A DNA stretch of 64,000 nucleotides, from contig NC_011026.1 in NCBI RefSeq assembly GCF_000020525.1, forward strand, positions 2,090,001 through 2,154,000. Direction: 5' to 3'. This stretch comes from Chloroherpeton thalassium ATCC 35110. GTDB lineage: Bacteria; Bacteroidota; Chlorobiia; Chlorobiales; Chloroherpetonaceae. Position numbers and translations under genes: made by a program. Of this stretch, positions 4,135-4,994 are shown in pieces; the first letter of the stretch is position 1; every line of letters starts with the position of its first letter. The notes under the pieces were generated by a model. That model had not been told where the DNA came from. It saw nothing but the letters and a program-made list of their open reading frames with translations, and did not search any database.

Positions 4135-4464
4135 TTATTGCACGGGTTGGCTATAAATTTCCGGGTAGAGTTTTCTGCCGCATTCTGGGCAGATGCCATG
4201 AGAGCAAACGGCGTCGGTGTGGTTGCGAATGTAGTCAGCTACATCGTGCCATTCGCCATTTTCGTCCCGCACTTTTTTGCAAACGCTGCACATCGGCAAC
4301 ATGCCTTCCAAAACTTTGATATTATTAATGGCTTCTTGAAGTTCTTTGCTGAGTTTTTTTTCATTTCGCAGCAAATGAAACTGGGTTCTGGTGTTGATAT
4401 GTGTTTTCCAGCTCAGCCAAAAACCCAAAAAAAATTGGCAAAAAGAAGCGCCGACCAAATACAT
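4135..4464 (-). CDS. Cysteine-rich C-terminal part of the frameshifted membrane protein
   Basis: Downstream half of the gene above, in the -1 frame. The in-frame ATG at 4464 lies inside the upstream half and is probably not a true start. It encodes the end of the sixth helix, a charged helical linker (about residues 30-52), and a tail with LPMCSVCKKVRDENGEW, then SHGICPECGRKLYPE. This Cx2C ... Cx2C tail is known from the C-termini of many sensor kinases and membrane sensors in Chlorobi and deltaproteobacteria, where it follows a coiled coil; metal binding is likely but unproven. It supports a sensor-like role for the whole protein. Confidence 0.65.
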   Translation of the reverse strand: MYLVGASFCQFFLGFWLSWKTHINTRTQFHLLRNEKKLSKELQEAINNIKVLEGMLPMCSVCKKVRDENGEWHDVADYIRNHTDAVCSHGICPECGRKLYPEIYSQPVQ

Positions 4465-4994
4465 TGTTCGGCTACGTGAGGAATATTTTTGCGAGTGAGC
4501 AGAATAAAGCAGACGCCCAGCGAAAAGTAGGTTGCTGTGATGATTTGAAGTATCAGCTGTGTGGGGAAAAAAATGTAGATAGAAAAGATGATGGTAATAT
4601 CAATCAGCAAGTGAAAGAAAAATGTGGGCGGGCGAGTGGAATCAATGTAGAGAATGGCGCTGCAAGTGCTGATGAGCGCTAAAAATGTAACCCGATCAAA
4701 TTGTTTCGGTTCTTTAAACTGTAAGAGGAGATAGAAATAAAAAAGGTTAAAAAGGGTAAGAAAGAGCCTAACTGCAAGAATGATGTGGTAGATGGGTTGC
4801 TCATTTCCGAGTAGCTCTTTGTCCGAGCTGATAAAAAGAAGATTGAAGATGAGCAGCAGACCGACAATAATGATCGCTTGCAAGCGATCTCGATCTAAAT
4901 AGGTTTCGCGATAAGCTTCTTCTAATGGTGCGGATTTGAATTGCCCAAGCCAAGAATGAATTTCTGCGGGGATGCCTATTTCGAGCATTTTCAT
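4413..4994 (-). CDS. Six-helix membrane protein, N-terminal part of a frameshifted gene
   Basis: Unrecognised membrane protein. After about 35 soluble residues there are six hydrophobic helices, the last one running into the break (WSALLFANFF). The frame ends at a stop just after a run of eight T on the coding strand (4427-4434). The next frame, one base back, continues smoothly into the helix, a coiled-coil-like linker and a cysteine-rich tail (4135-4464). Adding one T to the run would give one protein of about 286 residues. In the reading frame the run reads AAT TTT TTT, so it contains T TTT TTT, a legal -1 slippery heptamer. It may be a real frameshift, polymerase slippage, programmed slippage or a sequencing error. 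Confidence 0.7.
   Translation of the reverse strand: MKMLEIGIPAEIHSWLGQFKSAPLEEAYRETYLDRDRLQAIIIVGLLLIFNLLFISSDKELLGNEQPIYHIILAVRLFLTLFNLFYFYLLLQFKEPKQFDRVTFLALISTCSAILYIDSTRPPTFFFHLLIDITIIFSIYIFFPTQLILQIITATYFSLGVCFILLTRKNIPHVAEQCIWSALLFANFFWVFG

Follow-up and report, generated by a model that had tools for sequence, protein, structure and literature searches.

The window, a stretch of 64,000 nucleotides from the Chloroherpeton thalassium genome, carries on its minus strand an ORF for a six-helix membrane protein that stops shortly after a run of eight T, together with an overlapping frame that continues the sixth helix into a cysteine-bearing tail. This arrangement raises the question of whether the cell makes two products from one gene, a bare and a tailed sensor, or whether the gene is broken in the strain or in the deposited sequence. 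We consider an indel in the homopolymer (a strain mutation or an error in the deposited sequence) to be the probable answer, in a gene that is whole elsewhere and with a leak that is not under selection.

Reading frames around the T8 run

The run lies near the end of the six-helix ORF, on the minus strand at plus-strand coordinates 4427-4434, where it reads as A8. The features of the locus are as follows.

4413..4994, minus strand: ORF1, 193 aa long, with six helices predicted as hydrophobic, the last of which extends into the T8 run; its C-terminus is WVFG, then stop
4427..4434, minus strand: T8 run (A8 on the plus strand); the in-phase heptamer T_TTT_TTT consists of the first seven T (4434-4428)
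4413..4415, minus strand: zero-frame TGA stop, four codons past the T8 run with TGG included in the count
4135..4599, minus strand: open -1 frame with the end of helix 6, the helical linker and the cysteine tail; encodes P0002
4464, minus strand: first ATG of the -1 frame, opening a 109-aa ORF
4303..4383, minus strand: helical linker, a likely coiled coil, QFHLLRNEKKLSKELQEAINNIKVLEG, mostly within helix 5-47 of the P0002 model
4165..4299, minus strand: tail domain LPMCSVCKKVRD...SHGICPECGRKLY; counting the flanking L52 and G54, it retains every one of the 10 columns that do not vary among 52 other tails
4354..4361, minus strand: a further run of eight, read as A8 on the coding strand, within the tail frame and 65 nt past the end of T8
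4326..4434, minus strand: predicted RNA structure starting at the T8 run, z -2.3; its 75-nt parts have z -2.1 to -2.9

Across the run the zero frame reads AAT TTT TTT TGG GTT TTT GGC TGA and thus holds, in phase, a heptamer of the X_XXY_YYZ form associated with -1 programmed ribosomal frameshifting. Past the run the -1 frame reads LGFWLSWKTHINTRTQF, followed by the helical linker and then by a tail with CxxCK and SHxxCPxC motifs. By codon preference the zero frame is the better one up to the run and the -1 frame beyond it, the -1 score being near or below zero over the first dozen codons past the run. The position of the run and this switch confirm the original prediction of eight T with protein-like frames on both sides; the stop of the upstream frame four codons on and the permitted -1 heptamer T TTT TTT are likewise found where it had placed them.

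Single-frame homologues and the tail domain

If the two frames are halves of one gene, proteins that join them should exist, and three were found. The first, L054, came from the 80 loci kept from a tail-alignment scan of reference genomes: this Terriglobia MAG encodes the six-helix sensor, the linker and the tail as one ORF (27% identity over 268 columns; E 1e-30 within the set of 80 ORFs). A sensor profile of three rows, from which the tail was left out, was then used to search 375 genomes drawn around a MAG labelled as a proteobacterium, and it matched L136 (E 1.5e-11) and L137 (E 4.9e-7); both ORFs hold the tail in frame, even though the profile contained none. All three homologues share with the split gene the six hydrophobic helices, the linker and the CxxCK...HxxCPxC tail, and differ from it in that their frame is unbroken. 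Thus, in every full-architecture homologue found (3/3, all distant), the whole protein is encoded in one frame; conservation of the split and its run, which would be expected of programmed transcriptional slippage, is not seen among them. In a further genome (G100, from the phylum draw of the window), the sensor, aligned to positions 12-259 of the query, is joined to a histidine kinase (HisKA and HATPase_c). Since the sensor stands ahead of an output part in these homologues and in G100, it belongs before an output part in the cytoplasm, with the -1 frame as its natural continuation. These sequence comparisons give good support to the view that ORF1 and the -1 frame are halves of one gene, and they uphold the earlier proposal of a single split gene whose -1 frame carries helix 6 on into the cysteine tail.

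Structure predictions point the same way. In the AlphaFold model of L054 (mean pLDDT 71), a single helix, 161-217, extends from the final membrane segment across the linker, with block means of 81-97 over most of its length; the tail model of the split gene (P0002, mean pLDDT 83) has one helix, 5-47. A helix that is continuous in both models would place the T run inside the very element expected to pass the signal. At this junction N-x-x-G of L054 and L137 aligns opposite N-x-x-x-G of the split gene. An argument that the -1 product is one residue too long was left unused: MAFFT places a gap at the Phe run, but two other alignment modes do not.

The split gene has all the marks of a sensor-linker-CxxC tail protein: the helical linker, CxxCK and [ST]HxxCPxC. 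CxxCK and [ST]HxxCxxC are carried by 77 of the 80 collected ORFs, and the CxxCK...[ST]HxxCPxC tail is widespread, with at least 564 confirmed stretches; among the matches listed, tail-bearing MAGs are titled Terriglobia, Deltaproteobacteria, Nitrospirae, Chloroflexi, Spirochaetes and Neomarinimicrobiota, besides others. P0002 had no match in Pfam or NCBIfam at E 0.01. The 53 tail members had none in NCBIfam and only weak ones in Pfam (DUF3039 in 12 of 53, best E 4e-4, and six other families with one member each). At E 0.001 neither a sequence search nor Foldseek, run with the tail model, found a PDB relative, and a literature search with four tail motif strings returned none. The tail looks like a sensor output domain that has yet to be described; none of the libraries searched has a clear entry for it.

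Little in the tail suggests decay past the break. Its frame is free of stops over about 100 codons, and at the 10 columns without variation in 52 other tails it agrees in all 10; those tails were taken from the 80 loci without a fixed selection rule and had been found by motif match. At the columns conserved in at least 90% it deviates in 4 of 22, while 51 of the 52 other tails deviate in three or fewer and one in five. Its tail profile score, 104 bits, is close to those of the intact L137 (103) and L014 (97) and above that of the intact L004 (83); it is below 51 of the 52 leave-one-out scores, a comparison biased against the split gene by the motif selection of the other tails.

Closer relatives were sought around the locus itself. 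The next gene begins about 40 bases past the tail stop and encodes an MgsA/RarA-type AAA+ ATPase (PF12002). The 60 relatives compared include none of the same genus and one of the same family (G001, of another genus). With the sensor half at E 0.01, these 60 and the genome itself (61 in all) yielded a match in the C. thalassium genome and in no relative. G001 keeps the neighbours adjacent, namely the MgsA/RarA gene and the divergent DUF4835 and NAD-synthase genes (its ORFs were matched by sight), yet the gap from the MgsA/RarA gene to the DUF4835 gene is ~0.1 kb there vs ~1.1 kb in C. thalassium. By tblastn at E 1, nothing of the split gene was detected at the G001 locus, nor beside the MgsA/RarA gene in seven other relatives. 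With the gene missing from G001, the comparison of the same locus in close relatives, as first proposed, cannot decide whether the split is conserved; we counted this absence in favour of an indel.

Wider searches were similarly sparse. A scan of genome contigs with the read-through protein confirmed no relative, and a plasmid search gave no match. A single-sequence search of 297 genomes around L054 matched L054's own genome alone, as did the sensor profile against genomes holding tail loci (1 of 50, for 50 of the 80 loci). The sensor half, searched against 394 genomes at E up to 0.01, matched nine. Apart from its own genome and G100 (3.5e-6), these were seven weak matches (E 9e-4 to 0.009), each of them partial and some with internal stops.

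Homopolymer runs and the case for slippage

To see how the genome treats such runs, we counted them in the window and 20 spaced 20-kb stretches (464 kb, ~14% of the single-contig genome of 3,293,456 bases), using 312 ORFs of 150 aa or more, picked mechanically, and an expectation obtained by shuffling synonymous codons within each gene 100 times. Coding A/T runs of eight are as common as expected (65 vs 69; A8, 38 vs 39.7; T8, 27 vs 29.4), whereas runs of nine or more are avoided (9 vs 36; A9, 3 vs 13.0; A10 and longer, 2 vs 7.0; T9, 2 vs 9.8; T10 and longer, 2 vs 6.0). The step between lengths 8 and 9 is sharp and follows a gradient in which runs of six are in excess 1.3-fold and runs of seven 1.1-fold. 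Four of the nine long runs start in the first eleven codons of their ORF, so that internal runs of nine or more are rarer still. Baranov et al. take a step of this kind as selection against slippage at that run length (PMC1088944). By the same reasoning, slippage would start to cost at run length nine in C. thalassium, and T8 would fall on the tolerated side; avoidance that sets in at 9 and not at 8 is an indirect measure of the length at which runs become slippage-prone. Whichever explanation of the split holds, the sample thus gives the length, nine, at which A/T runs start to be avoided in genes. As a separate observation, a membrane-like ORF of 340 aa (L152:16768-17790, plus strand) contains in-frame T12 and A9 runs despite this avoidance.

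While T8 is not rare in coding ORFs (27 T8 and 38 A8 in the 312), a run at a frame transition is. Screening 60 coding-like frames over runs of at least eight returned three rows: the T8 site, its reading from the other strand, and the end of a TPR-repeat ORF in L154, which looks like an ordinary gene end. The T8 site is the sole convincing frame transition among the 60.

We regard it as unlikely that slippage here is functional, in the sense that RNA polymerase stutter on T8 or a ribosomal -1 slip on T_TTT_TTT would give a bare and a tailed sensor in a ratio that sets signalling. The intact tail frame is consistent with such a role, and the same genome offers a model for it: in dnaX (L037, about 2685) an A9 run is followed four codons later by a stop, the offset is -1, the zero frame ends in KKKTSR and the -1 frame holds a long C-terminal part. 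Like the split gene, dnaX thus combines a homopolymer run, a -1 offset and a stop four codons on with a long product in the other frame. Being a candidate for programmed realignment, dnaX differs in using A9 and not T8 and in a run that also contains A_AAA_AAG; the use of A9 also fits with an avoidance that starts at nine. C. thalassium dnaX is listed with nine As in PMC3711429. That paper also lists several further species whose dnaX consists of two ORFs and has a poly-A run, whereas the T8 gene is unsplit in all three of its full homologues. Another parallel is tssM1 of Citrobacter rodentium, which shares with the split gene a premature interruption with a homopolymer just ahead of the stop, the canonical protein being full length; there, however, transcriptional frameshifting occurs at A11 and both products are reported to be needed (PMC4256274), while the present gene has a run of eight.

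Measurements in E. coli bear on both routes. With E. coli RNA polymerase, insertion at T8 restored ~10% of the in-frame GFP control and at T7 ~5%, as reported in PMC6260861, so some leak is likely at the T8 site even if it is unselected. As a -1 site for the ribosome, U_UUU_UUU is described as shifting much less than A_AAA_AAG in E. coli (PMC5009743); this and the tolerance of runs of eight in this genome count against functional slippage.

RNA structure was also considered. For the 75-80 nt past the run, predicted folding gives z -2.1 to -2.9, the minimum among 65 windows of the gene, and the predicted structure ranks 3rd or 4th of 59 coding runs. At each offset, two or three other coding runs fold equally strongly, and we rejected the structure as proof of programmed frameshifting. 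A terminator-like stimulatory stem upstream of the run was also discarded: the adjoining stem is weak (-4.3 kcal/mol, 4460-4427), and a stronger one lies well upstream. Should slippage nevertheless be at work, a green bacterium would have, next to dnaX, a case that concerns signalling.

A second split gene and the remaining explanations

At E up to 1, the tail has three matches in the C. thalassium genome. L004 is an intact ORF of 184 aa with hydrophobic stretches and the tail. The other, besides the T8 gene, is L003:1450-2600 (genome 1073932-1075082, minus strand), where a Tll0287-like sensor (PF11845, E 4e-24) is followed by the tail in another frame; the break between them is a +1 offset at TTTTAAAAAC, with a short A5 and no long run, and the same pair of sensor and tail is unbroken in L061. 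Like the T8 gene, L003 has this kind of tail, lies in the same genome and is broken in frame at the sensor/tail joint; it differs in its sensor, in its opposite offset and in having only the short A5 at the joint. Two of the three tail genes are therefore split at this joint, which suggests weak constraint on such tails in this lineage. Because L003 lacks a long run and has the opposite offset, weak selection on the tails, or sequence errors, is a simpler reading than a shared mechanism. We give a low probability to the proposal that homopolymer slippage yields a six-helix form lacking the tail together with small amounts of the full form, that the joint has been loosened in two of three tail genes, and that slippage, not the promoter, sets signalling stoichiometry.

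Three results incline us to a broken or mis-sequenced gene: runs of eight are not avoided while those of nine or more are, the L003 gene is split without a long run, and none of three full homologues shares the split. Counted on the other side are the undecayed tail, the dnaX geometry, the E. coli rescue at T8 and the rank of the RNA structure. The original prediction had left the choice between two products and a broken or mis-sequenced gene; its second half is the one favoured here, and two-product slippage stands unproven. On the indel reading, a single gene would encode a membrane sensor of six helices, the last of them leading directly into a linker in the cytoplasm and a cysteine/histidine tail, and the T run in helix 6 would now be of such a length that the tail falls out of frame. 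We infer that this came about by a recent strain mutation or an error in the deposited sequence, two origins that are inseparable here. If the sequence is correct, the main product would be the bare six-helix protein without its output tail, presumably with loss of function, and full-length protein would arise only by slippage, probably at a low level and without selection. Were the indel all there is, the outcome would be a small correction to the reference genome, with two ORFs joined into one sensor gene.

Phase variation, in which replication slippage would alter the length of the T run and cells of a population would switch the tail on or off, seems to us very unlikely. Eight T is short for a contingency locus, the coding ORFs of the genome contain many runs of eight, and no other run at a convincing frame transition came out of the screen. 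The run does sit in the helix between sensor and tail, where a change of length would uncouple the tail, and switches of this type are known, for example the G-tract in Bifidobacterium pili (PMC9187656). We attach equally little weight to two separate proteins, with the tail ORF translated alone from ATG 4464 (whose 109 aa comprise helix 6 and the tail) or by re-initiation near the TGA, where a TTG lies a little upstream of the stop, since the parts are fused in 3/3 full-architecture homologues found, the helix is unbroken in the L054 model, and ATG 4464 falls within the sixth hydrophobic segment.

A screen of ORF pairs, tried as a measure of the genome-wide rate of split genes, was too unspecific: of its 58 candidates, 52 had a start codon close to the stop and six, the T8 site not among them, had none. 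Elsewhere in the genome, at L153:1749-7519 (plus strand), a coding-like ORF of 157 codons is overlapped by a -1-frame ORF that extends 1765 codons past its stop and has no ATG or GTG near, a possible split gene.
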